NCBI GenBank assembly: GCA_027422505.1
Contig: JAPQWV010000636.1
Coordinates: 248,001-312,000, forward strand
Length of the DNA: 64,000 bases
Direction of reading: 5' to 3'
Source of the DNA: Craterostigma plantagineum
Taxonomy: Eukaryota; Streptophyta; Magnoliopsida; Lamiales; Linderniaceae
Shown: piece by piece, positions 199 to 45,488 of the stretch
Numbering within the stretch: the stretch's first letter is position 1
How the letters are laid out: the number at the start of each line of letters is the position of its first letter
The notes under the pieces: generated by a model
Told to the model about the DNA's origin: nothing
Databases searched by the model: none
Seen by the model: only the letters and a program-made list of their open reading frames with translations
Translations under genes and position numbers: made by a program

Positions 199-3100
199 AT
201 GGTGCGACAAATTGATGAGATTTTCGCCTGCAAGGACTGGGCACAGAGGGCACCCAACAACCATCAACTTGACTTTGATAATACCTCGTGCCCGGATCCT
301 ATCATTATTAAATCCCTCGCAAACCACCCTCTAAATACCGCCCTAAACATCACCGAGGTAGTCCCTGAAGTGTATGTGCAACAATTCTGGTCCACTCTTC
401 AAAAACCAACCAATAACCCAAAAATAACCACCCTTTCCGCCAAAATCGACAACACCATAGTTGTCTTTACTCCATCCGTTCTCCGTTCCATACTAAACCT
501 ACCTCATTCACTCCTATATGATCCCCATCCCTCCAACGACGACCTAATCAGGGACTACTATTCATGGGCCACAAACCTAACGCCCAAAACACCATACACT
601 TACCTGAGTTCACTGCCAAAGACATCCCTGCACCTTGGAGGACTCTGTTTCTCATTGTCAACAAGTGCCTCTCGCCAAAGCACTCCGGGTCCGACAAGTG
701 CAACTGGAACATCATGCTTATCTCTATGGGATCGTCTTCAACAAAAATTATGATGTCGCCCAACTCATCTGGTCGGACATCCGCAATCAGCTGCGAAGGC
801 GAGGTCTTGGATCAACGAAGCCGATGCTCCCTTACTTACGGTGGCTACCAGTTATCGTCCAACATTTCGTGGATCTTCATCCCGAAATCAAACGCCGACC
901 GAGAAACGAGGGTTATCAATCTCCGAAGCTCATAAAAATCCAATCAACGAAGAGCAAAATCGATCAGGAGGCCATGATCATCCCAGACCACTTACTTCGC
1001 CTCCTCGATCCGAATGAGCCGGAGCTACGCAAATATATGCAAGCCAACAACCTCGACAACGTCCCCGTGGCTCAACAAAACCAAGTTGAACCTAACCCAG
1101 GGACAAGCCAACCCCCACAGCCAAATGTAGGTCTAGGACACTCCTCATCCTCACAGCCAAAACACAAGCGCAAATCCAAAGGGGCTGACCGAGGAGGACG
1201 ACAGGAATGGCGTACAAAGCAAAAACATGACCGTACTCCTAAGTCAACTAGTCCACTTATAAGCCGGACCGAACCCATAGGTACAGGGGATGACTTTGTC
1301 TTCCCCCGAGTAGAAGTCGCGACATCGGGTCCAATCGCGCAAACTACCCTTCCCAGCCACTCAATCATCTCCCAACAGATGATTGTTTCACATACTCACG
1401 AGGTGCCACGTCATTCATCACCACCTCGCTCGGAGATGGTTGATGTAACAAGCAGTACTCCGCCTCAGACTGCACCTTCCTTGATCACTACGAGTCTAGT
1501 GCCCTCACCATCCATAATTTCTCCACTTTCTAGGACACTACCAATAGATTCTGCACTTCTAGATCTTAGTGATGTAGACCGAACGCACTACGATGTCTCC
1601 GTACTGGAGTCTAGTACGGAACAGAGCCGAAGACCCAACGTAGTCAACATCACTGCAGCTACGACCTTGGGCCATTAATCTGAGTCAGTGTCAGCTTTGA
1701 TGTCAACGATGAGCCGTGGCCTCGGTTCTTCAAGTCCTGTGCAAACGGGCGGCACATCAGTGCCCTCTACTGATGTTGTGACGACGGAACGTCTTAGTGA
1801 CTCCGTCAGGTTATTTTCCCCGTTCGTGACGGAGGTGAGCCTAGAGAATCGACTCGCAGCATTGGTGAAAGATCTCGAGGACACTATTATGACCCAAGTC
1901 TACAACGTCATTGGGACATCCTCTCGGGATAAAGGCAAAGCCCCCGTCAACGAAGAAGTACCCACGCAACCCGACCCCACTGCTTGCTCTGAGGAAGGAC
2001 CATGGAACGTACCAATCCCGGAACTGATCGACGTTCTACTGGCCCGACTCCGTACTGCACCAACGCTCACTGCCTATGAAGCGAAGGTCCTCAGACGTCT
2101 GGAGCTTCCTTTCAACCCGCCTAACCCCGGCGAGGCCTAGTCATCAAGACAATCCCGTGACGACCCTGACGGTGGGGATCGTCCCGAGGGGGAGAAGACA
2201 CAAGGGACAGGGCCTCAACCGCAGCCACAGCCGCAACCTAGAACCACCCGAACACCCACCAGAACAAAACCACCTACTTCCACCCAAACCAGAAAATCTA
2301 CCCGAACTACTACCAATAAAACCCAAACGACCTCCTCATCAACCGTGAGTCCATCACCGCCTAGCCTTACAAACCCAAGAACTTCCTCTGATCCTCCATC
2401 CTCACCTACTCTATCTCTCGAAACACTTTACAACCGACACTCAGCGGTAGAAAAGTACATCTTCAACGACGATTGGTTAACAAAGCCGATGCATCCAGCC
2501 TTGGACAAGGGCTTACTGGACAACCCCAGATACTTCTTGATGAAGGCAAATGTTGACCTCGCACTTATCGACGATGATGAGCTCGAGGAAGGTGAAGACT
2601 ACGAAGCAGACATTCCAGAACTTCCAGAGCTTCTCAAACACGCTGTCGTCGATAAGGAGTGCCCCCCTCGAAGTCGAACATAGGAAAAGAACAGAAGCCG
2701 CCGTGGGAAAATGTCAAAGTGATAGCTCCATATCAAAAAGAGATACGGAGAAGAATTTGGAGGAAGGAAGATAGGATCAAGGAGCTAGACGAGCTGAGTC
2801 TAAGAGGCCTAACTCATCTCCCGAGAACAACTGCTATACGATACCTACACTCTCTTCGTAGAGGGCTTGTGTTGAGAGCAAAAGATACAAATGTTGAAAA
2901 TCTTAGAAGAGAAGAGAAGGAAAAGGCCAGAATCAGCAAAATCTTGGGAGTTCGGCGAGGTCGTCTCGACTATTATGAGTATCCAATCTATAAAGTGCAG
3001 CGAGAAGATGGAACGGTTGAGGAACTGACTGAAGGTGATCTCTCCTACATCAGAGGTGAAGATGTTGATCGGATACTTTTCAGCTTCAAATTTCTTGGAA

Positions 3101-3498
3101 CACTCCAGAATCCAGACTTGAAAGTGGGCTACGTTGCTCTTAAGCGATTCATGATGCGCCAAATCAAGTTCAATTTGACTCACGATCTTCAAATGGCGGT
3201 GGAAAGCAACATGAAAAGGGTGAATCTCACGAAGCCATCCTTCGAAGTCCCCGACTCAAGTCTTGGTGAAGGCCACATAATCAATGATGACAACGATCCA
3301 TCGGTGGTCTACATCAATTACAAAGGAGAAAAGAGGCTGATGAAAACATCGGAGATTGCCAAATCCAGCGATGGGACGCTGCTGATTATTCGGGTGAAAC
3401 TCGAATGGATTTTGGAGAAGCTAAGGAACGAAGAAGCAGAAGTCCAGGAGAAGTACGAGAAGCTGATCAACATCATCTCCGATCGATTATCCTTATGA
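199..3498 (+). pseudogene. Extra ORF of a copia element (third ORF, function unknown), decayed
   Basis: The frame opens at ATG 199. The N-terminal part reads VYVQQFWSTL and later VVFTPSVLRSILNLP; the middle has MIIPDHLLRLLDP; the C-terminal part has RQIKFNLTHDLQMAVE and GEKRLMKTSEIAKSSDGT. From memory of the family, this N-terminal, 'IPD' and C-terminal arrangement matches an uncharacterised protein following pol in copia elements that are abundant in asterid genomes. A Pro/Thr/Arg-rich linker (about 2150-2340) separates the halves. The copy is broken: frame changes near 550, 715 and 2650-2690, and in-frame stops at 1676 and 2138. No catalytic motif, signal peptide or clear membrane span was seen. 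Position 3' of pol resembles that of env-like ORFs, but similarity to env is not evident. Confidence 0.6.
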
Positions 3499-5310: not shown

Positions 5311-6013
5311 TTTAATTGAGTCGGGCGAAGCTCGTGTGAAATTGGAAATTCAATTGGAAGAATTCAATCAAATGAAACCTAGTAGAATCAAGTTACTTTC
5401 GCCGAGCTTATAGTGTAAGAATTTAGATGATAAGTGAGAAACCTTTTAAGGATCGAAACTTGATTGGAATTGAACCAATTAAGGATCGATTGATACCAAG
5501 TCCCAATCACTTTAGCCTAGCTATATGAACTAGAGTCCTTGAACTCTAACATACTTTAGCTCTTGAAATATAAGGGTTTAAGAATGTAAGACGCAAATAA
5601 ATTAAATGGGAGTCTAGAAAAGTTATACAAGTCCGAACAAGCAATAAGAAGGAATTTAATTACTTCGATGAATTAGCTAAGGAAGCAACGTACTAACCTC
5701 CTAACCTTTTTATTTAAAAGGTCGTACGATAGGAGCAAACGGGGAGAATACTAATTTCGCTTGGACGACAAGTAAGTAGAAATTCAACTACGACACGTAA
5801 CTTGCCTGCGTTCTGAATTATGTGCTCGTGTATTTTATGTGAAATATGCATGTTACGACATGATTTAATTTTACGTATGGTGGCATGGTTTGCATATGTA
5901 CATGAGCATAGCATGAGCACTTGCACGCATGCGTAGTACGTAAGGCGCGAGGTATGAGCGTGCATAAGATCGCCTGTGTGCGATGTATACTCGCCGATAT
6001 TGGTGTTGGTGTC

Positions 6014-6320
6014 GACTCGAATGAAGAGTCACGGCTACCCCTATGCGGCCATGGCGAATGAAGCCATAAGGCCTGTATAAGAGGCTGGGGGAATACCCCG
6101 TATGCGGGAGATGCAACCTGGAGGATGCGGCCCGGGTCACACGCTGAGTAAGGGAAGATTCCTTCGGGTGACCTTCTAGCGTGTAAAACACTACCCGGAG
6201 GGAAGATTCCTTCGGGTGACCTCCGTGGTTAGTGGCCTCGGTGTTGGCTACCAGTGAGAAGCGTCCGCGTGGAGGCCACACTGAGTAAGGGAAGATTCCT
6301 TCGGGTGACCTGCTAGTGTG
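6014..6320 (+). other. Constant-loop, variable-stem hairpin array in the A LTR
   Basis: Two short hairpins share the loop GAATGAA but have different stems: GACTC/GAGTC (6014-6030) and ATGGC/GCCAT (6051-6067). Three larger ones enclose the same 23-base segment (GGGAAGATTCC...GGGTGACCT, at 6152, 6200 and 6289) between different stems: ACACGCT/AGCGTGT (6139-6184), CGGAGG/CCTCCG (6196-6225) and CACACT/AGTGTG (6277-6320). The array lies about 590-890 bases upstream of the LTR 3' end. Pairing was read by eye; structure in RNA is inferred. Confidence 0.6.
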
Positions 6321-6524
6321 AGAACCTCCACACTTGAGATCTATATGATATGGCGCATAGTGGGATAGAAAGCCGAGGGCCCGAATGAAATAAGAGTATA
6401 AGAAAAAGAGTAAGAGCGTAAGAAAAGAGTACGAGAATGAGGAAAAAGAGTACGAGCGTTAGAAAACGACGGCGTGGATTGTCGATCGTTAGGACACGTG
6501 CATTCATGCATAATTTCTGCTTAC

Positions 6525-10000: not shown

Positions 10001-11527
10001 CAGTGCAGAATTGCAACTGCTAGAAGTAGAAGTCGTATGGGTAGGCGAAGTTGAGGCGCAGTTAGCGGCCCTAGCTTTGCAACCGACGCTGTTAGAACAG
10101 ATCAAGACGGCGCAAGGAGCAGACGAGTTGTATGCAAAGATTAAGGAGGCACAGCCGGAACAACCGACGGGATACCTCGTGATACGGGAAGACGGACGGT
10201 TATACTTCAAGAATCGGTTGTATGTGCCAGACGACGTCGAACTACGACGGCTAATAATGACGGAAGCACACGGTACGACGTACTCGGTACATCCAGGAGC
10301 GACGAAGATGTACAGAAACCTCAAGGAAAACTACTGGTGGCCAGGCATGAAAAAGGACATCGCGACCTTCGTGAGTTAGTGCCTGACGTGCCAGCAGATC
10401 AAGGCCGAGCATCAAAGACCGGCAGGAACCCTGCAACCGTTACCCATTCCGGAATGGAAATGGGATAACATTACCATGGACTTCGTAGTAGGACTGCCTA
10501 GAATTGCGAAAGGGCATGACGCGATTTGGGTAATCGTCGATCGACTAACCAAGTCGGCCCATTTCCTACCAATAAGTACAACGTTCTCCATGGAACGATA
10601 CACGGAGCTCTATATCCAAGAGATAGTGCGACTGCACGGCGTTCCATCATCGATAGTCTCGGATTGCGACTCCAGATTTCTATCGAAATTCTGGACGAGC
10701 TTGCAAAAGGCGATGGGAACGAAGCTATCTTTTAGTACCGCCTACCATCCGCAGATGGACGGTCAATCCGAGCGAACTATTCAGACGCTGGAGGATATGC
10801 TCCGAGCATGCGTACTCGATTTCAAAGGAAATTGGAGTAGGTACCTCCCACTAATCGAGTTCTCGTACAACAACAGCTACCACGTCACCATCGGGATGGC
10901 ACCGTACGAAGCGCTATACGGGCGTAGGTGCAGGTCCCCGGTACACTGGGACGAGGTCGGAGAACGGGCGATGCTAGGCCCCGATATAGTATGAGAAACG
11001 ACGGAAGCCATTTCTATGATACGAGAAAGAATGCGAACGGCACATAGTCGACAGAAAGCTACGCAGATAGAAGACGTCGACCACTGGAATTTGACGAAGG
11101 CGATATGGTGTTTGTGAAAGTATCGCCAATGAAGGGCGTGAAAAGGTTTGGAAAGAAAGGAAAGCTGAGTCCTAGGTATATAGGACCGTTTAGGATACTG
11201 AAAAGAGTAGGCGAGGTAGCATGCCAATTGGAGCTGCCTGCGTCATTAGCTCAAGTGCATGACGTGTTCCACGTCTCGTCACTGCGGAAATACATAGCCG
11301 ACCCGAATCATGTGCTAGGAAATGAGTCCCTACATCAGCAATTGAAGCCGGATCTGAGTTACGAAGAGACTCCGGTGGAAATACTGATGTACGAGACTAA
11401 AAGGCTAAGGAACAAAGATATTCCTTTAGTGAAAGTACTGTGGCGAAACCAGTCCACGGAAGAAGCCACATGGGAACGGGAGGACGAAACGAGAATTCGT
11501 TACCCCGAGTTGTTTCACACGGGCTGA
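7062..11527 (+). pseudogene. A gag-pol polyprotein (gag, protease, RT, RNase H, integrase, chromodomain), broken
   Basis: From ATG 7062 the frame holds the gag core (RFRKLNPP, then [13 protein letters not shown]), a CX2CX4HX4C zinc knuckle at residues 318-331, protease active site VDSGATHSF (Asp at residue 384), RT with [12 protein letters not shown] and FIDDILVYS (9216-9239), RNase H with [11 protein letters not shown] and YTDHKSL, then integrase with the HHCC finger (about 10260-10390), [16 protein letters not shown] and GQSERTIQ. The C-terminal part (about 11360-11520) has VKVLWRNQSTEEATWE, a chromodomain-like tail that may direct insertion into heterochromatin. In-frame stops lie at 7083, 9081, 9900, 10377 and 10992, and a small deletion near 11055 shifts the frame. 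Most stops replace a Lys or Gln codon of the family. The copy cannot encode a full polyprotein. Confidence 0.92.
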
Positions 11528-11547
11528 TTTCGGGGGCGAAATCCTCC

Positions 11548-11992
11548 TTAAGGGGGGGAGGATGTAGGACCCCGGTCCCCGCAAGTTAGGTCGGCCAATA
11601 AAATTACGTGTATGACTTATGTGATTTTAGGTCGATTTCGTATATGACTTATGCGTATGTGATTTTCATGAATTTTATGCTCGTGAGAATTTTGAGAACT
11701 ATGTGCAATTAAGTGCTAATGTCGTGAAATTGTGATGACCCTAAAAATTTTGAAGGAGGAATTTCCGAAATAGTAAGGAAGGAATTAACTAAAGTTGGCT
11801 AAGGGATTTAAATGGGTCCAATTTATGAGAAAAGCCCAAATGGGGGACAAATATCCCTAAAACTAGGGAAGACCCATGCCATACCCCACATAAGCCAAGG
11901 GAAATATCTAGCTAAAAATTCCAAAACCCAAAACTCCACCTAAGAACTAACGAAAGAGCAAGGAGAAAAGAAGAGGGAGCCGAGAGCCAAAT
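11548..11992 (+). repeat. A polypurine tract and truncated 3' LTR
   Basis: TTAAGGGGGGGAGGA (11548-11562) precedes TGTAGGACCCCGG (11563). The LTR matches 3743-4172 with about four differences by eye and stops at 11992, where element B starts with TGTGACGACCC. Confidence 0.9.
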
Positions 11993-12445
11993 TGTGACGA
12001 CCCTACTTTTATAATGTAGATATTTGGCGGATTTCCGCAACGAAAGCCGCGGAAAGCCCATTTAATAAAAACTTTTTAATTTATATATCATAAAATGTGG
12101 TTTTACAAAAGATATCTTTACACGGACTGGAGCCCCAAAAATTCAAAAATCTAAAGCCGCTCCACAGGTCGCATCCATGTACCGCTCTCGCCCTCAAAAG
12201 CCCGTGGAGTCACCGTCGCCAGCTTGCCTTAGACGCGACGTCTATCGACGTCGGACTCATCCATACCTACAACACATAAAGGCCTGAGCTATATGCTCAG
12301 TAGGTGAATTCATGTAAATGCAGCGTGCACTCAATCCCGACCCGACACCTCACCACATGATAAGATGCGATGCACGCTCGTTACCACAATCTACCCTATC
12401 TCAATATCAGGGCCCTAGGTCGAACTATGCACCTCAAAAATGAAC

Positions 12446-12685
12446 CTACGGCACCAACCGTAGAGTCGAGCGGCACCAACCACTCATCTCGACGGCACCA
12501 ACCGTCATCAGCGGCACCAACCACTGATCATACCGGCACCCGGTCACATAGAGATAGGCGGCACCAACCACCTATCTCGACGGCACCAACCGTCATCAGT
12601 GGCACCAACCACTGATCATACAGGCACCAACCGGTCACATAAATCCGGGCGGCACCAACCACCCGTCTCGACGGTACCAACCGTC
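12446..12685 (-). other. Array of eleven CACCAA-loop hairpins with different stems (left B LTR)
   Basis: Read on the plus strand, the units share loop CACCAA (once TACCAA). Their stems are CTACGG/CCGTAG, GAGCGG/CCACTC, GACGG/CCGTC, ATCAGCGG/CCACTGAT, ACCGG/CCGGT (damaged here, intact in the right LTR), GAGATAGGCGG/CCACCTATCTC, GACGG/CCGTC, ATCAGTGG/CCACTGAT, a second ACCGG type, CGGGCGG/CCACCCG and GACGG/CCGTC. In the intact units the only imperfect positions are C opposite A on the plus strand, which are U opposite G in the B sense RNA (loop UUGGUG). Units are almost back to back. No protein reading was believed. Confidence 0.8.
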
Positions 12686-13464
12686 AGGTGCACTAGTACC
12701 AACCTCAACTCGACTCCGAGTCGACGACCAAAATCGGTCACATCTACCACATGCGCCTCGCGCCGACACCTTAAGGTGTCACCGTGCCAACACGGTCATC
12801 ATCTCCCACATCGACATGTCATGCACATGCTATGTAGTGCAACTAAGGATGCAACATTTCATAAATGAATAACTATTTTCATCGAAAATAATTACATTCT
12901 CATCGTAATTTACTAACAATAATTCCTCAAGATTCCCTAATAAGTATTTCCCTTTCCCTCAAAATGATCCTCCCGTATAATTCTAACTCAGCCCGCACAA
13001 TTCAAAATCCTTTAATCTATTTTAAAATCCCAAATTAACTCTTACGACCCGGATAGGCTTAAATTGGCCGACACTTGAACTAAGGCCCAAAATCACTTAA
13101 CTAGTCGACATGTGAGGAAAAGTCCACATTGGAAATTGGATTTGCCAACCTAAGTCGAATGGTTGTTCAATTTGCCAAGTCGCTAGTCAATTCGTGAATT
13201 AATTGACCTGTGAGAGTACACACTCCGCGAAACTCCTACGCCTAACTCTTATGGTTCAAAATAGACTAAGTGTGGGAGTGGGCCTAAATTTGAACTAAAG
13301 CCCAATTAAGTTTATTCTAAGTCAACACTCTAAACTTGGTCAACGCTCACCATTTGACTTCTCCGCACTAAGTTTCAAAGGTGGGTCAACTCGTGAAACT
13401 ACCTTGTCAACGCTCGAAGTTATTCGGCCCGCGAAGTATTTACTTCGCGAACTCCAAGGCATCG

Positions 13465-13468
<4 letters not shown>

Positions 13469-13543
<75 letters not shown>
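13469..13543. repeat. CT/AG microsatellite (left B LTR)
   Basis: About 75 bases of uninterrupted TC dinucleotide. The right LTR has only about 55 (26737-26791), so the pair has changed in length since insertion. Confidence 0.97.
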
Positions 13544-13547
<4 letters not shown>

Positions 13548-15807
13548 CGCAAATCTAGCCGGCCCGCGAGAGGTTTAGTTCGGCCCGGGTTGTCTCTCGC
13601 TCGCAAAAATCTCTAGCCCGCGCAAAGCCCTATCTTGGCCCACGGAGACGTTTGCTTTCTTACATGCCGTGACTCCAAGCCCGCGAGAACGTTTTGTGAC
13701 CCGACATCGTTTCCCCAATTCATGAAGTTCTCAACCCGCAAAAATCATTCGCTCTCCCGCAACTCGTGAACCTCAAGCCCGTAAACCCCTTTTCGACCCG
13801 AAATTATCCCCCAATTTGCAAACTACCCCAAACCGCAAAATAATAGTCTCTATTTTAAAGAGTTCTAATTTCACTCGTTAGACACCTATAGTCCAATAAT
13901 CAAACTTAAACCCTAATTCCTTGAAATTCTCTACATTAGTTCATTACCACCCGAATAATCTCATAACAAGTAGAACATGTAAAAATCAAATATAAATCCA
14001 TATATTGGCTTCCAAACATAACACAATATTAAAAGCATAATTCCACAACAAGGTTGAACACCTACCATTTTCGAAACATCCCGCCCTATCTCACAATTCG
14101 CAAATTCTCTAGCCCGCGAAGCTAGTTTTCGACCCGAAATTTATTCCCAATTAGCGAAATCCCTCAGCCCGCTAAATTAAAGTCTAACTTCACCTAAAAT
14201 TTCTATTTCCACCTCGTCAACTCATACGAACGAACTAAATCGCAAAACCTTATTTTTCTACCAATTATCTTCGTCTCCTAACACTTATGCGTATAACCAC
14301 ATATGTTCACCAAAACCCATATATTGGGTATGAAACTTCACGCATAACATTGAACAAGTTCACCAAAACCCATAATCATCATATCCAAGTATTAAATATA
14401 TCACGTGAGCTCATTTCGCGGCATGTACAAATCAAATAATCACATAGAGCATGGAACATGTTTAGCATATTTATATACATGGGATTTACGTATTGTAGGT
14501 GAGAATTTTGACCTACGAATTTCTTCAACCCTATTTGTTTATGTACTCAAAGTATCTAAGGGATCTAATATTAAACACTTATTTAGACTTATTTGGAATT
14601 CTCTAAACATGCTCATACGCCCCATTTTAGTATTTAAGCCATCCGAATTCGGACCAAACTACATAAAAACATATAAGCTACCCACAAGAATATGAAGTTC
14701 TAATACCAAATTCTCTTAAGAACGTTCGCAACTCCCTTAAACCTATTTACGCTTCATAATTTTCAAGAATCAACTCCAACATAAAATACACACACCCGAG
14801 AATTATAACTAAATCACATATGTCACATTAAGCATCCACATAGTTCACGTAGCTCCACGTGATTTGTCTAAGCACACATTTAAAAATCATACAAATATAA
14901 TAATCACCTCGAGAGTCTCATAAAAACATTTTATACTCACATAACTAAATCACATGTCACTTTGAGAATTTCTGTCACCACATAGTTCACGTGACTTCTT
15001 GGAATTCACCTCAAGCACTCATTAAAAATCATAAGCTCATAATCCTATTCCTAGCATGTAAACGTGCTTATCCACATAAAGCCCATATATCGGATTTAAA
15101 ACTGAGCGCACAACATAAGCAAATGGTAGCTATCATAACCAAATGAACTAAGGATCATCACTTTCGAACTTGTAGAGCCTATCACCCAAGCTTCGTTCAC
15201 CTTTCAAACTAACATAATAATTTTCTATGCTCATAAACATGTATATTCATAGATGCATACCCATATATTGGACTGAAGCATAGCGTATAATATTAATAAA
15301 CAGCCACAGGTTTAAACTTTAAATATTTTCGAACTTGGAAGGCCATTCATCTGAGTTCAAACATCCCAAAAAAAATGCTTTGTGTGTTGTAGGTGAAAGA
15401 ATCCACCTACCTATCCTCCAAGCCAATTTCAATGATCTTTGGGAAGTTGAGCTAGCCGAAACTCTTGATCCTTTGTTTGGTTCGACCCACTATGCTTCAA
15501 CTCCTTAAGCCGTTGGAATTTAATTCGAGGTTGAAATTTGGATAGAGCTTGCCCACAATCCTTCTTTACTTCTTCGTCACTTTCATTTATTTCTCTCGTG
15601 GATGTGATGAGTTGCAAGTGATGGTTTTCTTTTCAATTACCACGTTTTCTCCTTAGCCAAATAATGATTATTTTATATAGGTTTAGCTTAGGGAATGGGA
15701 GCCATGCCTTTGGTCTCCTCAAATTAAGGAAAATATCTCCTTTGTTTTCTCTATTGTGCTCAAGTTTGGGTTTAAATCATTTTCCACCAACTTAAATCAA
15801 TTGGGCC

Positions 15808-17351
15808 TGATCGACACGTGGTGTGTGAATGGAAAGTGCGACAAGTAATAATTAAAACGAATACCTAATTACTATCACCGACGTGCGATAGGCAGTGGAC
15901 CTATCGTTTGTAGTGCAGTAAAGTGAGTAAACGAGTATCGAACACAAGGAATAAATCAATTACTAGTAGTGACCTATCGACTCGATATTTAGCCTAAACA
16001 AAATACGCAATTTGTTTGACGACTTATCCTAACAGATCGTTCCTAAATCAACTAGAGATTCAAATAGCACGCTTAAAACTGATACGAAGCTTCAGATAAT
16101 AAAGAAGTGCTCGGGATTCGAATCCCGCTAGGTGTTATCGACTAAGACAATAAAATCGTTCCTACGTGATCTTGACTAAATCGCAGTAATTTCCTACCCG
16201 CTCGCGAATTTGCTGTCGCCCTAAACGCTCGCGGGGATCTAAAATTCAATAATTACTAACGGCGAGGATCGAGTATTTGCTTTCGCCATATACTCGAATC
16301 CTATCTTCTATGAACGGCCTAAACGTTGTTTAGCTGTCGCCCTAAACGTTTTTCCACACGATCACTTTAACACATAGACATATTAAAGCGACGAAACATA
16401 TTCATAGAACGATAAATAGTCAAAACACAAAATCACGATAATATACGTCTTAAGTACGACTAATCCTAGCGTTCATCTAATCCCAAACACAAACGGGATT
16501 TAGCTACGCATAATTGACGAGAGAACGAGAGAATTAGGGAACAGAGAAGGAAGACTCATGATTCTTGAATACTGGCGAATTATCGGCGCTTGCTTGATAA
16601 ATCTTCGTTCTCTGATCAATTTGGCGTGATTTCGTCGTCGCTTCGTCTCTTGCGCTCCGGGATGTAATTCTGTGTTCTTTTCGCCCTAAATTCGTCCCTA
16701 GATGGTTTGGAATTGATCTCTGGTAAGTTGTGCCCTTTCTGGGTCGAATTTGGGCTTTTTATAGTGAAATTCGACACTGTCACGGCCTGAGACAAGACAG
16801 GTCACGGCCGTGACACTCTCTGGGTCGAATTTGGGCTCACTGCCGCTCGTCACGGCCTGGTGCAGCAGTGTCACGGCCGTGACCCCCTCAACAGCTTTGC
16901 GGCAGTTTCGTATTTCTCTCGGATGGAGGGGTAAACGATGTCCGATTGACCTGAAATTTTAACCATAGATAGAAGACTCGCCAATCTTGATTTTGACCAA
17001 AGGGATTCTCGATCCGAGGTCTGGATTGAGCGATATTAATTTTCTAATGCTGCTGCTGCTATGGGTCACGGCCTGGTGCAAGAAGTGTCACGGCCGTGAC
17101 CATCTTCAGTCTAACTCTCTGCCAAGTGTCACGGCCAGGTGCACTATGTGTCACGGCCGTGACCTTCACCAGTTTTCATCGTTTTCGCGCCGTTTTGCCT
17201 CGTTTTCGCTCCTTTTAGCCCGAAACTTATCCTAAAGCCTTATAATACCAAAACAAGCAGAAATAGGATTAATAAGTGCATAAAATGACTACGAAAACTC
17301 TATTATGAGCCAATTAAATACTATGATAAACGTGCTACGATACGTTTATCA
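15808..17351 (-). repeat. C 3' LTR (1544 bp)
   Basis: Near-identical to 21912-23453. It carries four GTCACGGCCGTGAC palindromes. No coding content. Confidence 0.95.
16786..17163. repeat. Four GTCACGGCC modules with 14-base palindromes in the C LTR
   Basis: Each module is GTCACGGCC, a spacer of about 12-17 bases often containing TGGTGCA, then the perfect palindrome GTCACGGCCGTGAC. Palindromes lie near 16801, 16869, 17088 and 17149; the right LTR repeats them near 22907, 22977, 23192 and 23253. The first half of each module can pair with the end of the palindrome. The spacing suggests two pairs of modules. Confidence 0.85.
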
Positions 17352-19076
17352 AACCTCCCCACACTTAAGCATTTGCTTGTCCTCAAGTAAATTAGAAGTC
17401 AGAGAAGGCACAAATCAAGATAACGGCACGATTGTTCGCAATTTATCATCAAAGCTAGAAAGCACGAAACAGAATCAAGCGAGCAATCATGGACATCACA
17501 CTAATGACTTGCACTTGTCGACCTAAACTTCATTCGCACTGCCAATCGAGACTCATACCTCACAGGGATTCGCTCAAAATCACTCAGTGTATAGGCTAAC
17601 ATATAGTGAATCGCACAATTCGTGCACTAGTCTCACCCCTACCATAAACTTGCACTCTAATCGCATCTCTACTATTTAAAGTGGCAAGCATAAATCTGAG
17701 GATCTTTTCGGGTTGAAACGGGTCAAATAATAACGAAGCGATAAGCATATATACTGAACACGTAGTCTTAGAGCTAGGACACGTAAGCGAAAAATATCAA
17801 AGAACATAGCATGATTAAACCGACCGTCACATGCTTCAACATAAGACTCAGTTCTCGCTCTGAAATCCTAGACTTTTCTGCCCGACCCTCTTGACTCAGT
17901 TCCCTTTCATTTTCTGCCCTTTCACCTTAGTTACACTCCACTTTTGTGCACTGCCCTTATTCCTTAAAAACATCAAGGTTTGGCTTTTGTCGCAAAGAAT
18001 ACATCGTCACCGCGAATGCCGTGTACCTAGGGATACTTATTACCAAAACCTATATCTTGCCAAAGGGTTATGGGCAGGCTTATGCAAGGGATCGGGTCAT
18101 TTCAGAAAACGGTCAAGTAAGGGACGAGTCATTTCACGAATAGCAGAGAAGAACATCAAATCATACACTGAAACAGTAACTCTCAAGTTCGACTTCTGCT
18201 CTATTCTAATCAACTAGGGTTCATATAATCTCTAGAGGCTTATTCGGGTCAGTAGCTTATAGAATTCACGAGGTAAGCAAACAAATAGGCTCAGGCTCAA
18301 AGTGGCTAACTAAGGGGCTTAGTCATGGTAAGAAAAATTTGGCCCTGGACTTAATTCCTAATACCCTATCATTTTCATACTAACGCACCAGAAATAGTTT
18401 CAACACGCATCAGACAGGCAAGTTCTAGAGAGATATAGACTAGGCACGTCACACAACCAAGAAAATGAGCATAAGCTCGTCAGGCTCAACTCTCACAACG
18501 AAAAAGGGTTATGTGTAGGAATCTCTCAAAGCAGCGCTATATCTATTCAAACAGACACGATTCAATCAATCATGCATATCCTAATTGCTCACAAAATTTC
18601 ATGTCATGCAAACCAGCTTGAGATAAGCGCAAATAATCATGCCTGAGTTCAATAATTCATGCTTTTCTAACGAAATTGATAGCTAACGGACACCTCATAG
18701 AAAAAATATTTCACGTAAATTCTCAACCTAAATTTCCCTCCCCACACTTAAGACATACGTTGTCCTCAACGAAAAAATGAATAAAGAAAGGGAAAAGAAG
18801 GTTAAAAAGAACGGGACTCCCCTGACGAATAAGTAGGCGTGGTCGTGACTGGATGCGTGAAGGTCGCGGATCGTGACTCGTGATATCCTTACATAACTAA
18901 AAAGAAAATGAAAAGTAAAAAGGAACTAGACATAGATGATAATAATAATAGTAGTAGTAGATTTCATATGCATCATATTCATAGGTAAATAAAAGAAAGT
19001 ACTAGATAGATAAAACCTGGGTTGCCTCCCAAGTAGCGCTTTCTTTACCGTCATCAGCCGGACGTGCTTTCGTTCG
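17352..19076 (-). other. C noncoding 3' region with terminal and internal polypurine tracts
   Basis: No real gene in 1.7 kb. At the LTR edge the sense strand reads AAGTGTGGGGAGGTT just before TGATAAACG, a good polypurine tract (17352-17368). A second copy of the same context (sense CTTAAGTGTGGGGAGGG, 18736-18752) lies 1.4 kb upstream; both have a TTGAGGACAA-type word on the upstream side. CTTGGGAGGCAACCCA (sense) sits near 19020-19035, a block I recall in plant Athila/Tat elements; it can form a TGGG/CCCA hairpin. Confidence 0.7.
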
Positions 19077-21721
19077 TTAGGGTGGCTGGAAGTCGAGGTA
19101 CAGCATCTCTTTTTTGCTTAAGTTTCCCTCACCTGCATCTATACCTTGGAGGTGTAGCCTTTCGCCGGGCAGCGGTTTCAACTCTAGTGGCGGTCGCTCC
19201 TCGACTGGGCTCTTGTCCTTAACTTCTTCGATGCTCTCGTCGATGGCTATGATGGGTTCGTCGATCTCCTCCCCACACTTATTGATTGCCATATTCGTGT
19301 GCCTATCATGCTCGCTGACCTGTGACAGCACGGAAAAGAGAAAATCGTGCTCAAAGACATCTAAGAAATAGCATTTATCATCTTGCTTGCTCTTTTTCAT
19401 CGGGTCAGCCATATTGAACGTAACTTTTTCACCGTCTACTGTCAAGGTTAATGTTCCATTCCTAACATCTATCATGGTCTCGCCTGTAGCTAAGAATGGT
19501 CTACCTAGAATTAATGGAACATTTTCATCCTCGTCCATGTCTAAGATCACAAAATCAGCAGGGATAACGAACTTATCGACCTTAACTAGAATATCCTCGA
19601 TAACACCTCGGGGGTATTTTAACGATCTATCGGCCAGTTGAACACTCATTCTAGTGGGTCGTGGTTCACCTAATCCTAAGCGCTTAAACATGGAGTACGG
19701 CATTAAATTTATACTAGCACCTAGATCAGCTAAAGCATGCTCAACAACTAAATCACCTATCAGACAAGGAATAGTAAAACTCCCTGGGTCCTTGAGTTTT
19801 TTCGGTATGCTCTGGAGTATCGCCGAGCACTCTCCTCGTAGGTATACCGTGGAGACGTGTTCGAGCTTCCGTCGATTCGTCAGCAAGTCCTTCAGGAACT
19901 TAACGAAACTGGGCATCTGCGTAATAGCTTCAACAAACGGTAAGTTAATATGTAATTCTTTGCACATACCCATGAATCTGCCAATTATCGCTTCTTCTTT
20001 GTCCTTCTTCAACCGTGTTGGATAGGGAATCTTTGGCTGGTACGGCATCACTAGTGGTCGCTCGTTCTCCCTCGCTTTTTCTATTTCGGGTGCAGCCTCC
20101 TCCTTTTTAGGTCGAACCTTCTCTATTTCAGGTGCAACTCCCCTCAACCGAACTGGATATGGGATATTTGGTTGATACGGCTTCACGAATGGTCGCGTCT
20201 TTCTCTCGTCATCCTTGACCTTCTCGACTCCGTCGCCCTTACTTTCCTCCACTTCTGGCTCGTCGTGGCCCTCGAAATCGACTTTCTCCTTTAAGTTCTG
20301 CTTGGTAGGAGCTTCTTGTAATCCTCTCCCGCTTCTCAAGATTACTGCATTGCAATACTCCTTGGGGTTTGTCTCGGTGTAGCTCGGGAGTGATCCTTGA
20401 TTTCGCCCCGCCATTTGCTTTGCTAATTGCCCCACTTGTTGCTCCAACCTCTTGATCGAGGCGTCTGTATTCTGAGCACGGATGTCATTCGCCTCCATGT
20501 ACTCCTCCATCTTTGTCATTCGGCTTTCGTGGGTTGCGGTTGTGCTGCTGAAATTCGTGAGGAGCGCCTTCATCATATCCTTCATCTCTCTCATGTCATC
20601 GGATCCTCCTGCGGGTACGTTCTGATATTGGCGTGGTGCCCCGTTCTGGAATCTGGAAGACCTAGGCTGAAATCCAGGCAGTCCTTGCCCCTGGTGGTTC
20701 TGATTCCCGTACGCCAGGTTTGGATGTGCTCGAGGCTGGAAGCTTCGCTGACCACCTTGGTAATTGCCCATGTAGTCTATGTGCTCCAGCGGCTGCCCAA
20801 GTTGGCATTCTGAGGTCTCGTGGGCTGCGCCGCAAATTCCGCATAATGGCACGTAAGACGTGTGCTGCGTCGGTGCGATGGTGGCCACGGCGTTCACGGG
20901 CTGAGTTTGCCCGGACTTGGGAAGTAATACGCCAATCACCGTCTGCAACTGGGAGTTCGTCGAGGCGATTTGTTGCTGAAGTGCCTCGATTTTAGCATTA
21001 GTGGTCGTCTCCTCACTCACTCCGAACACATCGGGTGTCTTCATCCTGGTATTGCCCCTCATGAAGCTGTTCCTCGAGTAGTCCTCTATCAGATTCCAAG
21101 CGTCGGTAGCATTGAGCTTCACGAGTCCTCCTCCTGCGGCTCCGTCTAGCATATGGACAGTCTGGTCATTGAGCCCCTCGTGAAATCGGTTGATCTGGGC
21201 TGCCTTCGACATCCCGTGCTGCGGGCACCTCTTCAGTAGGGACTTATATCGCTCTCACACCTCGTAGAGGTTTTCTGAGTCCTTCTGATGGAATAGGGAG
21301 ATCTCTGTCTTTAACCTTAGCACCTTCGTCAGCGGGAAATAGTGGCCGATAAACGCGGCTCGCAGCTCCTCCCATGTAGTGATTGAGCGAGGTGGCAACA
21401 TCTCCAGCCAGTCCTTCGCTCTGAACTTCAAGGAGAACGGGAACAGCATCAACTTAATTGCATCACCCGAGACCCCGTTGATCTTGATGGTGTCAGCACC
21501 GTCAGAAAAGCCTTCAGATGGGAGTAGGGATCGTCATCGGGATTGCCCTCAAACTGGACTGTCTGGAAGATCATCTGAAGCCAAGAGTGCTTCAGCTCGA
21601 AATTGTTGTTCTCGATCGGCGGGATGACAATCGCCGACTCAGTACTGCCTAGCGCGTCATTCCTGAGGAGATCCTGTAGTGATGGCTCCTCATCCTGGAC
21701 GGGTACTCTATGGTCCGCCAT
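19077..21721 (-). pseudogene. C gag-protease, broken
   Basis: The start MADHRVPVQ is at 21721. Gag then shows FRAKDWLEMLPP and LFHQKDSENLYEV, a coiled-coil-like stretch (KIEALQQQIASTNSQLQ), a zinc knuckle CGICGAAHETSEC and a charged linker. Near the C-terminus is an aspartic protease (LADLGASINLMP, about 19697-19740, and LILGRPFLATG). The frame ends at 19077 shortly after PPLELKPLP, which in autonomous relatives is the linker into RT; everything beyond is missing. The copy has a frame change near 21450 and a stop near 21255 where TGG is expected. The Asp of the active site is followed by LGA rather than SGA/TGA, as is usual in this lineage. Confidence 0.87.
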
Positions 21722-21887
21722 ATCTACTTCTGTATCTGGACTAAAGAAATCGACTCGTAAAAGAAATAACGAAAATAACAATAACTAGAAGAACAAATAA
21801 CGCCAACAGTAATAAAGAAAAGAAAAGGAAAACTTCAAATAAAAATGGCTAAATTACCGAACTACGGTGTTCCTAATATCAATTTAT

Positions 21888-21904
21888 TCCCCGGCAACGG
21901 CGCC
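21888..21904 (-). other. C primer binding site (tRNA-Asp)
   Basis: The sense strand reads GGCGCCGTTGCCGGGGA, complementary to the CCCCGGCAACGGCGCC end of plant tRNA-Asp. It lies seven bases inside the 5' LTR. This primer is typical of Athila-like elements. Confidence 0.85.
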
Positions 21905-21911
21905 GAAAACT

Positions 21912-23453
21912 TGATCGACACGTGGTGTGTGAATGGAAAGTGCGACAAGTAATAATTAAAACGAATACCTAATTACTATCACCGACGTGCGATAGGCAGT
22001 GGACCTATCGTTTGTAGTGCAGTAAAGTGAGTAAACGAGTATCGAACACAAGGAATAAATCAATTACTAGTAGTGACCTATCGACTCGATATTTAGCCTA
22101 AACAAAATACGCAATTTGTTTGACGACTTATCCTAACAGATCATTCCTAAATCAACTAGAGATTCAAATAGCACGCTTAAAACTGATACGAAGCTTCAGA
22201 TAATAAAGAAGTGCTCGGGATTCGAATCCCGCTAGGTGTTATCGACTAAGACAATAAAATCGTTCCTACGTGATCTTGACTAAATCGCAGTAATTTTCTA
22301 CCCGCTCGCGAATTTGCTGTCGCCCTAAACGCTCGCGGGGATCTAAAATTCAATAATTACTAACGGCGAGGATCGAGTATTTGCTTTCGCCCTATACTCG
22401 AATCCTATCTTCTATGAACGGCCTAAACGTTGTTTAGCTGTCGCCCTAAACGTTTTTCCACACGATCACTTTAACACATAGACATATTAAAGCGACGAAA
22501 CATATTCATAGAACGATAAATAGTCAAAACACAAAATCACGATAATATACGTCTTAAGTACGACTAATCCTAGCGTTCATCTAATCCCAAACACAAACGA
22601 GATTTAGCTACGCATAATTGACGAGAGAACAATGAGAGAATTAGGGAACAGAGAAGGAAGACTCATGATTCTTGAATACTGGCGAATTATCGGCGCTTGC
22701 TTGATAAATCTTCGTTCTCTGATCAATTGGGCGTGATTTCGTCGTCGCTTCGTCTCTTGCGCTCCGGGATGTAATTCTGTGTTCTTTTCGCCCTAAATTC
22801 GTCCCTAGATGGTTTGGAATTGATCTCTGGTAAGTTGTGCCCTTTCTGGGTCGAATTTGGGCTTTTTATAGTGAAAGTCGACACTGTCACGGCCTGGGAC
22901 AAGACAGGTCACGGCCGTGACACTCTCTGGGTCGAATTTGGGCTCACTGCCGCTCGTCACGGCCTGGTGCAGCAGTGTCACGGCCGTGACCCCCTCAACA
23001 GCTTTGCGGCAGTTTCGTATTTCTCTCGGATGGAGGGGTAAACGATGTCCGATTGACCTGAAATTTTAACCATAGATAGAAGACTCGCCAATCTTGATTC
23101 AAAGGGATTCTCAATCCGAGGTCTGGATTGAGATATATGAATTTTCTAATGCTGCTGCTGCTATGGGTCACGGCCTGGTGCAAGAAGTGTCACGGCCGTG
23201 ACCATCTTCAGTCTAACTCTCTGCCAAGTGTCACGGCCAGGTGCACTATGTGTCACGGCCGTGACCTTCACCAGTGTTCATCGTTTTCGCGCCGTTTTGC
23301 CTCGTTTTCGCTCCTTTTAGCCCGAAACTTGTCCTAAAGCCTTATAATACCAAAACAAGCAGAAATAGGATTAATAAGTGCATAAAATGACTACGAAAAC
23401 TCTATTATGAGCCAATTAAATACTATGATAAACGTGCTACGATACGTTTATCA
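21912..23453 (-). repeat. C 5' LTR (1542 bp)
   Basis: Copy of 15808-17351 with small differences, for example a five-base indel near 23098 and a two-base indel near 22631. The duplication GGGCC follows at 23454-23458. Confidence 0.95.
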
Positions 23454-23458
23454 GGGCC

Positions 23459-23698
23459 CTTCTTCACCCTATTTAACTACTTCTACTTGGCTCAAATATA
23501 TATATAATTTGCTCAATACTGTTTATTGGATCCAAATGAATTGTGCCAAAACTATTTAGATCGAATATTATTGTACCAAACTTCTCACCCGATCTCCGAT
23601 CCGCTCAATCATCGAATTCATTAATTTCGAACTCGTGCAAAATTAGTTACGTCCTAATCCCGTATTAAAATTACGGGTGTTACATCTTCCCCCCTTAA
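23459..23698 (-). repeat. B 3' LTR start and polypurine tract
   Basis: This is the remainder of the B 3' LTR after C. It ends on the plus strand ATTACGGGTGTTACA (23684), i.e. TGTAACACCCGTAAT in sense. Directly upstream in sense is TTAAGGGGGGAAGA (23685-23698), the polypurine tract. The I LTR start (54950-54974) is closely similar. Confidence 0.9.
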
Positions 23699-23912
23699 AT
23701 GAATTTCGTCCCCGAAATTAAGTGGCAGGGGAGTCGTGTTCGGCTCTACGACTAGGTTTGCCCATATATTTTCTACGTTCTCAAGACATACCTATTTTTC
23801 TATCCCACCACGGCTCTAATATCTCAATACCAATATTTAATTTCTATCCCTCATTGATAGGATTTATTCCTATCTATGTCACACAACGAGCCAACACATC
23901 CGAATGTGTTGC

Positions 23913-25096
23913 TCAACCATGAAGATCTAAACTAACGGGAAAGGGGCACATTATAAACAACGTACCCGTGGAAAAAGTAGGATTGGCCTCCGCCTCTTCG
24001 TTAGTTAGTGTAAAAACACGGGCGGGAACCAACGGTGGTCGTTCTTGTGGTGGGGCTAAGTCTTGGGGCAAGTTTGCCCGACAATTCTTGGCATAGTGGC
24101 CTGACCGTCCACATCGAAACATTGCATTTCGCGGTTTGGATTCGGATTCGTCCCGAAGCATATCCCAAAATGATAACGCCCACACTGCTGACACTGGGGG
24201 GCACGTCCCCTAATTTGAGCAGGAGCATGGGTCAACTCTCCACTTGGCTTTTCTCGCCCAATCGGTCCCCTCGGGCGATTACCCTTGTTGTTGGGGCCCA
24301 TTCCGATGTTTTGGCGCTTCCGTTCGCCCCCGTTGCCATGTGGACCCTCCTTTCTCTTCCTTGCCTCATGTGCTTCGACGATCTTAGCCTCCGCTTGCTC
24401 TGCAATCAATGCTCGCTCCGCTACTTGGGGAAATGCTAGCTCTCGACCTCCGCCACAAACGTCACGGTAAATTTCGGGTTTGAGGCCTACTTGAAAGCGT
24501 TCTACCTTTAGCTCGTTGGTCGCCACCATATGCGGGGCAAAACGCGACAGTTCCTCAAACTTATGGATATATTCTGCAACTGTCCTCTCGCCTTGCTTAA
24601 GATTGATGAACTCGTTCATTTTCCGAGTTCGGTCATGGGTGGTAAAATATTTTCCCCGAAATAGCTCCCTGAATCTTTCCCACGTCATGGTTATTGGGTC
24701 CTCCAAGATTTTGATGGTGTCCCACCAAAATCTGGCGTTCCCTCGGAGCATCGAGACAGCACAGAGTACTCGTTCATTTTCTGGGACTCGACTGTATAGG
24801 AACATGTCCTCCACGGTACATAACCAGTCATCTGTCACCGTAGGATCGATGGCATCCTCAAAAGTGGGAGGGTTCAACTTCCGAAACCGTTCCCCGATGA
24901 TCTCTACACGCTCGGGCTGGGGAGGTGGGTGGCGTTCGGATGAACCGTGATGTCGGATAAGATCAGCAATCTGATCCGATTGCCGTTGGATCAGCTCGGT
25001 GAGTCTCATAACTAAAGCATCCCGTTCATTGGTCGGGGACTCAGGTTCGTCCCTGCGACTCGACTCCCCTACGTATTCTCTACGCGTTCTCGGCAT
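23913..25096 (-). pseudogene. B gag with truncated protease
   Basis: MPRTRREYVGESS starts at 25096. The gag core [26 protein letters not shown] and EYIHKFEELSRFAPHMV is intact, about 346 codons in one frame. A frame change near 24120-24190 precedes the zinc knuckle CGRSGHYAKNC and the linker ARVFTLTNEEAEANP. Protease stops after its first strand: where relatives read on to the DSGATHSF active site, this copy turns to unrelated sequence. Gag packs the element RNA into particles; with gag alone B would need pol from relatives. The adjacent junction leads almost directly to the polypurine tract. Confidence 0.88.
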
Positions 25097-25243
25097 TTTC
25101 TCACTTATTCTCTACAGTCACCAGAATATAGAATCCATGTTAAAAGCATATAATCAAATCATACCGTAAAACTTACAGGCAGGGCTGGTTCTCCAGACTT
25201 TTGAGCGGCGGTACATGGACAGTCTTCAGAGTCTAGAGCCGAA

Positions 25244-25255
25244 GCTCTGATACCA
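25244..25255 (-). other. B primer binding site (initiator tRNA-Met)
   Basis: GCTCTGATACCA on the plus strand is TGGTATCAGAGC in sense, two bases from the LTR end. Confidence 0.92.
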
Positions 25256-25710
25256 CCTGTGACGACCCTACTTTTATAATGTAGATATTTGGCGGATTTT
25301 CGCAACGAAAGCCGCGGAAAGCCTCTTTAATAAAAACTTTTTAATTTATATATCATAAAATGTGGTTTTACAAAAGATATCTTTACACGGACTGGAGCCC
25401 CAAAAATTCAAAAATCTAAAGCCGCTCCACAGGTCGCATCCATGTACCGCTCTCGCCCTCAAAAGCCCGTGGAGTCACCGCCGCCAGCTTGCCTTAGACG
25501 CGACGTCTATCGACGTCGGACTCATCCATACCTACAACACATAAAGGCCTGAGCTATATGCTCAGTAGGTGAATTCATGCAAATGCAGCGTGCACTCAAT
25601 CCCGACCCGACACCTCACCACATGATAAGATGTGATGCACGCTCGTTACCACAATCTACCCTATCTCAATATCAGGGCCCTAGGTCGAACTATGCACCTC
25701 AAAAATGAAC

Positions 25711-25953
25711 CTACGGCACCAACCGTAGAGTCGAGCGGCACCAACCACTCATCTCGACGGCACCAACCGTCATCAGCGGCACCAACCACTGATCATACCG
25801 GCACCAACCGGTCACATAGAGATAGGCGGTACCAACCACCTATCTCGACGGCACCAACCGTCATCAGTGGCACCAACCACTGATCATACCGGCACCAACC
25901 GGTCACATAAATCCGGGCGGCACCAACCACCCGTCTCGACGGTACCAACCGTC
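25711..25953 (-). other. Array of eleven CACCAA-loop hairpins (right B LTR)
   Basis: Same array as 12446-12685 but better preserved: both ACCGG/CCGGT units are complete here. Unit six has loop TACCAA instead of CACCAA, still with the eleven-pair stem GAGATAGGCGG/CCACCTATCTC. The downstream hairpins GACACC/GGTGTC and ACCGTG/CACGGT are also kept (about 26033-26065). Confidence 0.8.
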
Positions 25954-26732
25954 AGGTGCACTAGTACCAACCTCAACTCGACTCCGAGTCGACGACCAAA
26001 ATCGGTCACATCTACCACATGCGCCTCGCGCCGACACCTTAAGGTGTCACCGTGCCAACACGGTCATCATCTCCCACATCGACATGTCATGCACATGCTA
26101 TGTAGTGCAACTAAGGATGCAACATTTCATAAATGAATAACTATTTTCATCGAAAATAATTACATTCTCATCGTAATTTACTAACAATAATTCCTCAAGA
26201 TTCCCTAATAAGTATTTCCCTTTCCCTCAAAATGATCCTCCCGTATAATTCTAACTCAGCCCGCACAATTCAAAATCCTTTAATCTATTTTAAAATCCCA
26301 AATTAACTCTTACGACCCGGATAGGCTTAAATTGGCCGACACTTGAACTAAGGCCCAAAATCACTTAACTAGTCGACATGTGAGGAAAAGTCCACATTGG
26401 AAATTGGATTTGCCAACCTAAGTCGAATGGTTGTTCAATTCGCCATGTCGCTAGTCAATTCGTGAATTAATTGACCCGTGAGAGTACACACTCCGCGAAA
26501 CTCCTACGCCTAACTCTTATGGTTCAAAATAGACTAAGTGTGGGAGTGGGCCTAAATTTGAACTAAAGCCCAATTAAGTTTATTCTAAGTCAACACTCTA
26601 AACTTGGTCAACGCTCACCATTTGACTTCTCCGCACTAAGTTTCAAAGGTGGGTCAACTCGTGAAACTACCTTGTCAACGCTCGAAGTTATTCGGCCCGC
26701 GAAGTATTTACTTCGCGAACTCCAAGGCATCG

Positions 26733-26736
<4 letters not shown>

Positions 26737-26791
<55 letters not shown>
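26737..26791. repeat. CT/AG microsatellite (right B LTR)
   Basis: About 55 bases of TC dinucleotide, the shorter counterpart of 13469-13543. Confidence 0.97.
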
Positions 26792-26795
<4 letters not shown>

Positions 26796-45368: not shown

Positions 45369-45488
45369 TGAGCCATGGTGCATCATCCTTACGTTATGTG
45401 TTGTAGGAACCAGCAAACACGGTACGTGACCGCCTAGCTTCGCGCTGCTTTTGGGGGTGGACGTGTGGGTATGGATGACGACCTGTGA
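45369..45488 (+). other. Conserved LTR 3' block in the solo LTR (degraded hairpin, TGTTGTAGG, GACCTGTG)
   Basis: TGAGCC (45369-45374) no longer pairs well with GCATCA, then TATGTGTTGTAGG, then ATGGATGACGACCTGTG. Order and spacing match A, B and I. Confidence 0.6.

Follow-up and report, generated by a model that had tools for sequence, protein, structure and literature searches.

The analyzed window, a 64,000-nt stretch of Craterostigma plantagineum DNA, contains an LTR element, element B, whose LTRs at 11993–14487 and 25258–27736 are 98.2% identical; their ends were set by BLAST and not by target-site duplication. A PBS-like sequence (TGGTATCAGAGC; 25244–25255, first base 25255), which presumably matches plant initiator tRNA-Met, is located on the minus strand just inside the 25258 LTR copy. 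The minus strand also carries a gag-type reading frame (24056–25111) with matches to Retrotrans_gag (PF03732) and Ty3_capsid (PF19259). Because both features are on the minus strand, B is read in this direction, as the preliminary description of this DNA had correctly stated. The LTR at 25258–27736 is thus the 5′ LTR and the LTR at 11993–14487, which includes the hairpin array at 12446–12685, the 3′ LTR. In the interior of B (14488–25257), we read the gag-type frame followed by a zinc-knuckle/protease-like remnant in another frame. A long RT or integrase frame was not seen in B, in which the domain scan covered the gag frame, and the element looks non-autonomous. A second LTR element is nested in B (LTRs 15808–17351 and 21912–23453, 98.6% identical).

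Ty3-type gag and RVP_2 protease domains were found in the window, PF03732 and PF19259 in the gag of B and additionally PF08284 in a further element, A. The integrase region of A matched SH3_Tf2-1 above the cut-off (95.6 bits, cut-off 30), while rve (28.4 bits, cut-off 32.6) and Chromo (20.9 bits, cut-off 25.1) stayed below. Judged by these domains, the B lineage appears to be a Ty3/gypsy-type, chromovirus-like LTR retrotransposon, presumably of the type named Tekay/Del-like. TATA-like stretches are present at positions 11 and 2385 of the 5′ LTR. Depending on which of them is used, the array would fall in U5/leader or in U3. A rice LTR of 3.2 kb is divided into U3 (1–244), R (245–2266) and U5 (2267–3292) in a passage of PMC3485330, showing that annotation may assign most of a long plant LTR to R and U5.

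Reading and parsing of positions 12446–12685 revealed 11 hairpins around the plus-strand core [CT]ACCAA (sense UUGGUR). The loop CACCAA corresponds to UUGGUG in sense RNA and is combined with seven stem types. All units belong to the minus strand and are given here in plus-strand letters. Hairpin 1 (12446–12463) reads CTACGG-CACCAA-CCGTAG and is followed by hairpin 2 (12468–12485; GAGCGG-CACCAA-CCACTC), in which one C opposite A corresponds to a sense G-U pair. Hairpins 3 (12491–12506) and 7 (12579–12594) both read GACGG-CACCAA-CCGTC. One sense G-U pair each is present in hairpin 4 (12507–12528; ATCAGCGG-CACCAA-CCACTGAT), hairpin 6 (12551–12578; GAGATAGGCGG-CACCAA-CCACCTATCTC) and hairpin 10 (12646–12665; CGGGCGG-CACCAA-CCACCCG), while every pair is formed in hairpin 8 (12595–12616; ATCAGTGG-CACCAA-CCACTGAT). 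Hairpin 11 (12670–12685) reads GACGG-TACCAA-CCGTC, and owing to its C to T exchange the sense loop would close with U-A instead of a possible U-G. Two units are damaged. Hairpin 5 (12532–12544; ACCGG-CAC-CCGGT) has a loop short by three bases, and hairpin 9 (12620–12635; ACAGG-CACCAA-CCGGT) has one mismatch. The corresponding units of the 5′ LTR are intact and perfectly paired, and this less damaged second copy of the array (25711–25953, minus strand) has 11 intact hairpins.

The units are nested in a higher-order repeat of 88/91 nt with four hairpins per repeat. Three of the four stems recur, so that GACGG occurs three times and ATCAGYGG and ACCGG twice each in the array, whereas the first stem varies (GAGYGG, GAGATAGGYGG or CGGGYGG). 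Because of this repeat, the seven stems are not seven independent ones. The preliminary description of eleven hairpins with one loop and seven stems was thus confirmed, with two units damaged and part of the stems being repeat twins. An extra ACCAACC adjoins the array in both LTRs (12698–12704 and 25966–25972); its core is intact and lacks pairing arms, as checked in the 5′ LTR copy.

Pairing of the array was compared with 200 dinucleotide shuffles per copy. Eight perfect hairpins were counted in the 5′ LTR copy and seven in the 3′ LTR copy, compared to shuffle means of 1.09 and 0.95. Across the 64 kb, hairpin density per 250 nt was highest in the two B copies (8 and 7), followed by a value of 6, at a mean of 1.09. 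Folding deviated strongly from the shuffled controls (z = −10.2 for the sense strand of the 5′ LTR copy and −9.0 for that of the 12446 copy). Moreover, pairing was arm-specific. When arms were swapped among the 12 core occurrences of the 5′ LTR copy, none of 20,000 permutations reached the observed sum of 78 (mean 45.6, maximum 67), and in a test limited to arms outside the GG/CC core, 1 of 50,000 reached the corresponding value. Each left arm matched the right arm of the same hairpin or of a repeat twin, and paired poorly with the rest. The 71 pairs of the 5′ LTR copy comprised 36 GC, 14 AT, 12 CG, 5 TA and 4 CA pairs and no TG pair. As described previously, all imperfect pairs of undamaged units are C opposite A on the plus strand; there are four, all at the third pair of the GYGG/CCAC core, which probably go back to one or two events. 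The array had no match among the Rfam 15 covariance models searched over 11500–28500 at E up to 1. A known RNA family was rejected, as this search gave only a sub-threshold match to snoR71, a plant snoRNA, outside the array (21211–21317, plus strand; 30.1 bits, gathering 40, full model length), within the nested element.

Two further arrays were found in the window, in elements A and T, at LTR positions comparable to that of the B array and with other constant loops. The LTR of A extends from 3743 to about 6905, the inner end being deduced from a PBS-like site at 6909, and the second LTR copy of A ends at the start of B. Its array in the 5′ LTR (about 5960–6370, plus strand) presents the loop GAATGAA on two stems, GACTC/GAGTC (6014–6030) and ATGGC/GCCAT (6051–6067). 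Furthermore, a 24-nt block is present in three exact copies (6151, 6199 and 6288), each within a different basal stem as we read the sequence, and the basal stems CACGCT/AGCGTG and CACACT/AGTGTG differ by a two-sided change. The number of perfect hairpins in this stretch is ordinary (4 vs 1.97, z 1.3), while its fold is unusual (z −3.8). The array of T (53146–53306, minus strand) carries the sense loop CGTKAGCGA on TCTGG/CCAGA, CTCGGG/CCCGAG and AGACAGA/TCTGTCT stems and holds an intermediate place (3 hairpins vs 1.0, z 2.6; fold z −2.4). The T LTR (from 52674 on) is 75–76% identical to B on the U5 side and homology returns beyond the array; between these blocks the T array differs from that of B.

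Beside the B array lies the lineage motif TTATGTGTTGTAGGTAT (12263–12279 and 25528–25544, minus strand), which was searched in the genome in its IUPAC form. The 17-base motif TTAYGTGTTGTAGGTAY, common to A, B and T, gave 12,809 exact matches (6,450 + 6,359) in the 1.71-Gb genome, compared to 4 + 3 matches for its reversed control. Genome queries with the arrays were evaluated for 40 of 444 candidates for B (94–100% identity), of 1,930 for T and of 2,709 for A. B arrays occur about every 5.5 kb at two places, with four successive arrays on contig C9 (about 24116104–24133021) and three on C23 (about 10376702–10387901), a repeated spacing expected of tandem elements sharing LTRs. Pairs of B arrays about 5.5 kb apart, as found elsewhere, are what one element gives.

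For a wider comparison, 60 of 100 listed motif sites, all on contig C1 and picked partly for variety of motif spelling, were taken as LTR sample. With three references added, single-linkage grouping at 80% identity or more over 450 nt gave 16 families. The sample holds near neighbours, maybe two LTRs of one element (e.g. L075/L093 and L081/L095), and these four fail the array rule, by which an LTR has at least two hairpins on one loop with stems differing at two or more compensated positions. Thirteen of the 60 sampled LTRs passed, or 16 of 63 with the references, two of these weakly due to short or loosely matched loops (L083 and L123). They belong to 6 of the 16 families. The other ten, many of them known from one to a few LTRs, were without such an array under this rule. 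Among the controls, none of 630 dinucleotide shuffles passed, and 1 of 66 tiles of the window between 28 and 64 kb, a stretch including the T array, did so.

Stems and loops of the relatives differ from those of B. L088 combines the stems GACGGCG/CGCCGTC, GGCGACG/CGTCGCC and CGACG/CGTCG with the loop TTGATG, and in family 1 AGACAGA, CTCGGG and CATTGG stems are found on CGTGANCGN. Family 5 (L072 and L091) has 11 hairpins with a TTRGTG loop in the same order as in B, in which ACCAGTGG/CCGCTGGT replaces ATCAGTGG/CCGCTGAT and a shorter stem replaces GAGATAGGTGG. Further compensated differences between relatives convert CTCGGG/CCCGAG to CCCGGA/TTCGGG and CGTTGA/TCAGCG to CATTGA/TCAGTG. The arm-swap test was also applied to T and to sampled LTRs; for L094 and the A reference it was uninformative with the cores chosen. 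In addition to B, arm-specific pairing was detected in L072 (0 of 50,000 permutations), L088 (6 of 720) and T (1 of 24). L129 was borderline (0.05), and L071 with three units only gave 1 of 6. The test failed in L090 (0.30), L077 (0.50) and L108 (0.83), indicating that some relatives have plain repeats. Other repeated cores (e.g. TAACGAGACCT, CGTATGCGA, GCGACCTGGGAAGGGGCGACC and GGCGCRGATCGCCTTTGCG) occupy the corresponding stretch of L090, L108, L094, L082 and L089, part looking like plain repeats and part like hairpins. The B array might likewise be a functionless tandem repeat, an LTR minisatellite with units palindromic by chance, for which the cores lacking arm-specific pairing in L090, L077 and L108 speak. 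This explanation is already disfavoured by the absence of arrays from the 630 shuffles and by the arms of B, L072, L088 and T, which pair specifically, and we regard it as very unlikely.

The lineage motif is flanked on its two sides by hairpins H1 (12284–12300, minus strand; CTGAGC-ATATA-GCTCAG) and H2 (12236–12253, minus strand; CGACGTC-GATA-GACGTCG), both arms of which differ between families. H1 stems read TGAGCC/GGCTCA, TGAGCT/AGCTCA, CTGAGC/GCTCAG or CTGGGC/GCTCAG, and H2 stems CGACGC/GCGTCG, TGACGC/GCGTCA, GATCACG/CGTGATC or GACGTT/AACGTC. The mean hairpin score was reached by 2.3% of letter shuffles for H1 and 9.5% for H2. Family 9 (2 rows) was dropped from the flank alignment and the hairpin tallies, and L123 from the H1 tally. 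The flanking hairpin covaries, as seen for the H2 counterparts in 31 LTRs (27 distinct rows) from families 1, 5, 12, 13 and 15, with L079, 28 LTRs of other families and the three references left out. In these rows, 97.0% of cells were paired compared to 94.1% in shuffles, and 16 cells had changed on both sides compared to 3.4, a count of the kind that relatedness inflates. None of 500 shuffles, in which relatedness was not controlled, reached the pairing, both-sides or covariation values. The pair-count and type-count measures of H2 did not rise above shuffles (150 of 500 and 373 of 500), so that only two pairs carry the covariation. When the flank was aligned with MAFFT (61 rows), RNAalifold predicted one short stem (−6.0), which did not go beyond column shuffles (mean of 50 −1.2, lowest −7.7) and brought no gain in covariation (0.4 compared to 0.5). 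We consider this whole-flank calculation uninformative, in our view because sequence alignment breaks covarying hairpins, and anchored hairpins were used for the flank instead.

That arms change together, as claimed at the outset for B, was thus borne out by the arm-swap test, by its recurrence in related LTR families on different stems and loops and by the covariation of a neighbouring hairpin. Such changes could also arise if, after tandem duplication, template switching in the course of reverse transcription or DNA replication made one arm a new copy of the other. Pairing would then be a by-product of quasi-palindrome correction and no function would be needed. Quasi-palindrome correction yields perfect palindromes and compensated changes without selection; many stems of the array are indeed perfect, and in the B repeat the two arms of the first unit change together. 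In contrast, arm copying predicts no lasting G-U pairs, yet a closing G-U pair of the AGACAGG/TCTGTCT type is present in 12 of 26 occurrences and sense G-U persists in the ACCTAC-type closing stem. H1 and H2, moreover, persist across most sampled families. Arm copying remains the main rival explanation, although we consider it unlikely. Maintenance of the stems by selection would account for the data better.

The C-A pairs had also been taken to favour an RNA made in the sense direction of B. A lean towards sense RNA was indeed observed, but it is weak, as few events are involved. Distinct one-sided states in 40 B copies comprised 14 sense G-U, 7 A-C and 6 other states besides 2 Watson-Crick states (14 vs 7, two-sided p = 0.19), and the strand argument within B was therefore rejected as decisive. 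Changes able to give sense G-U were also somewhat commoner outside the array (0.300 vs 0.215 per column). Fold energies were likewise rejected as decisive, since both strands of the 5′ LTR copy fold equally far from shuffles (z = −10.2 sense, −10.5 antisense), which gives no indication of the RNA strand. An alignment of the U5 flank (4 B and 28 T rows; sense −79.1, antisense −55.9) was not used, its sense strand being G+T-rich. Across families, the closing stem around H1 had 38 sense G-U and no A-C cells in 61 rows, in an alignment whose fold was no better than column shuffles, and the AGACAGA hairpin had 15 and none. The T-type groups together had 49 sense G-U and 11 A-C cells, with A-C and 'other' counts that are too high in the CATTGG group, where some rows were mis-extracted (loops such as ATTCGGGTG). 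As we read it, this cross-family G-U excess rests on few inherited events.

Loops were the least variable part of the array. In the 40 B copies, minority states per column amounted to 0.121 in loops, 0.162 in spacers, 0.204 in stems and 0.433 outside the array, the last value being somewhat too high due to misaligned starts of L053, L061 and L069. The B array thus has fewer variable sites than its flank. Arm copying predicts no conservation of the loop and yet loops vary least. Plus-strand C to T exchanges, which convert the closing U-G to U-A, or their reversal account for four of the eight minority states in the loops. When the RNA is folded, one more pair closes the B loop, GGU[UGGU]GCC, and the L088 loop reads CGU[UGAU]GCG. 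We read the T loop as CG[UGAN]CG with one unpaired base on the 3′ side. In L129, both bases of the outer apical pair of CG[UGAN]CG have changed, C-G being replaced by G-C (CGTGAGCGA to GGTGAGCCA). Of 45 distinct four-loop hairpins, 18 had UGRN four-base loops (at least 13 of them from B-type and L088 arrays), compared to 0–4 in each of 20 shuffle rounds. The loop of A is not UGRN.

A constant core could also be a transcription factor binding site, with the array acting at the DNA level as an enhancer of 11 sites. The B core ACCAACC is what we take to be the plant AC-II element for R2R3-MYB proteins. It occurs 28 times in the window compared to 6.7 expected, 23 of these in or beside the two arrays. 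The tobacco Tto1 LTR has MYB-bound repeats and resembles the B array in repeating a short LTR element with an AC-type core. We know of no arm-paired rows in Tto1. An enhancer leaves the pairing arms and the constant GG left of the core unexplained, and the core is confined to B-type loops, since the loops of A, T and L088 lack ACCAACC and thereby also differ from Tto1. Furthermore, the ACCAACC without paired arms adjoining the array indicates that the site can exist without a hairpin. Repeated cis-elements in LTRs are mentioned in a section of PMC10760457. As the second rival after arm copying, an array of MYB sites appears rather improbable.

We favour, with about even confidence, a selected cis-acting RNA structure that keeps a ligand-bound loop and lets its stems drift. 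The array would be transcribed, and in the sense RNA of the cell the LTR would fold into short stem-loops, arranged in a row and each showing the same apical loop. Selection would preserve this loop, and the stems only as paired scaffolds whose sequences drift via compensated changes and G-U intermediates. Tandem duplication would multiply and turn over the units, so that related families come to hold, at a comparable LTR position, rows that differ in number and loop, and a loop-binding ligand may read the loop many times over. The likeliest ligand would be the element's own Gag during RNA packaging, because of the location of the array in the LTR, its differences between families and its retention in B, for which a gag frame and no long RT or integrase frame was seen. 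A host RNA-binding or RNase III-type protein would come next.

Loops of hairpins SL2 and SL3 in the HIV-1 leader are bound by nucleocapsid and belong to the retroviral packaging hairpins. The arrays may be likened to these, since stem-loops within or close to the LTR transcript would expose short loops rich in G, and the B sense loop UUGGUG holds GGUG, but B has many tandem copies of one loop and drifting stems. A part of PMC3601003 links conservation of long retroviral R regions to stem-loops and states that plant Metaviridae LTRs could not be modelled. As described in a portion of PMC13183374, the yeast RNase III Rnt1 accepts substrates with A/UGNN tetraloops, with lower affinity for UGNN, and stems without consensus. 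The arrays share the UGNN-type loop and the lack of a stem consensus, whereas they belong to a plant retrotransposon and have short stems in rows; by this analogy, a UGNN-reading RNase III-type protein may be pursued as a lead for the ligand.

In contrast to a function for the element, the hairpins might be dsRNA-like substrates that feed small-RNA silencing by the host and are tolerated as the LTR needs them otherwise, as proposed for Sirevirus palindromes. Stems of 5–12 pairs are short for Dicer, and constant loops would not be needed; we give this possibility the least weight. In its favour, an excess of small RNAs at structured LTR palindromes in maize is reported in the relevant part of PMC10760457.

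The claim that such an array had no description in plant LTRs was too strong, as that same part of PMC10760457, with reference to Bousios et al. 2016, reports that palindromic motifs are clustered in the LTRs of maize Sireviruses, and describes maize Ty3 elements as generally without obvious structure peak. In both systems, self-complementary motifs form clusters in plant LTRs, and the RNA structure predicted for them is strong. However, the Sirevirus motif as given there has a constant stem (CACCGGACNNNGTCCGGTG) and a variable loop, whereas B has a constant loop and variable stems, and Sireviruses are Ty1/copia elements while B is of the Ty3/gypsy type by its gag matches (Retrotrans_gag and Ty3_capsid). 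No match to the Sirevirus motif was obtained in the window when up to 3 mismatches were allowed. A constant-loop, variable-stem array in plant LTRs was not found in a search of open-licence PMC papers for LTR hairpins and stem-loops.

To our knowledge, the choice of RNA by plant LTR retrotransposons is largely open. We tentatively suggest, as a possibility well short of the favoured reading, that this abundant LTR lineage carries a fast-changing, element-specific array in which the loop, often a UGRN tetraloop, is a recognition letter and the stems are free scaffolds. It might serve as a multivalent address tag marking the RNA of a family for its own Gag or for a shared loop-reading protein. 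If so, families with different loops would differ in packaging specificity, gag-only elements like B included. The constant-loop type of array would join the constant-stem palindromes of maize Sireviruses. Rows of fixed loops with compensated stems are a natural covariation experiment in many copies, and each family offers a short candidate recognition loop testable by simple binding and reporter assays.

Two further stretches of the window were noted. At 45394–45410 (plus strand), a copy of the lineage motif with one mismatch is preceded by a 14-nt tandem repeat, AGGGTGCGACCTGG (44957–44988); the motif copy may mark another old LTR of the lineage. The stretch from 48987 to 49417 is a dense tandem repeat, whose units are of the AAAATTTCGCGGTTTC type and show nested periods of 16, 39, 73 and 164.
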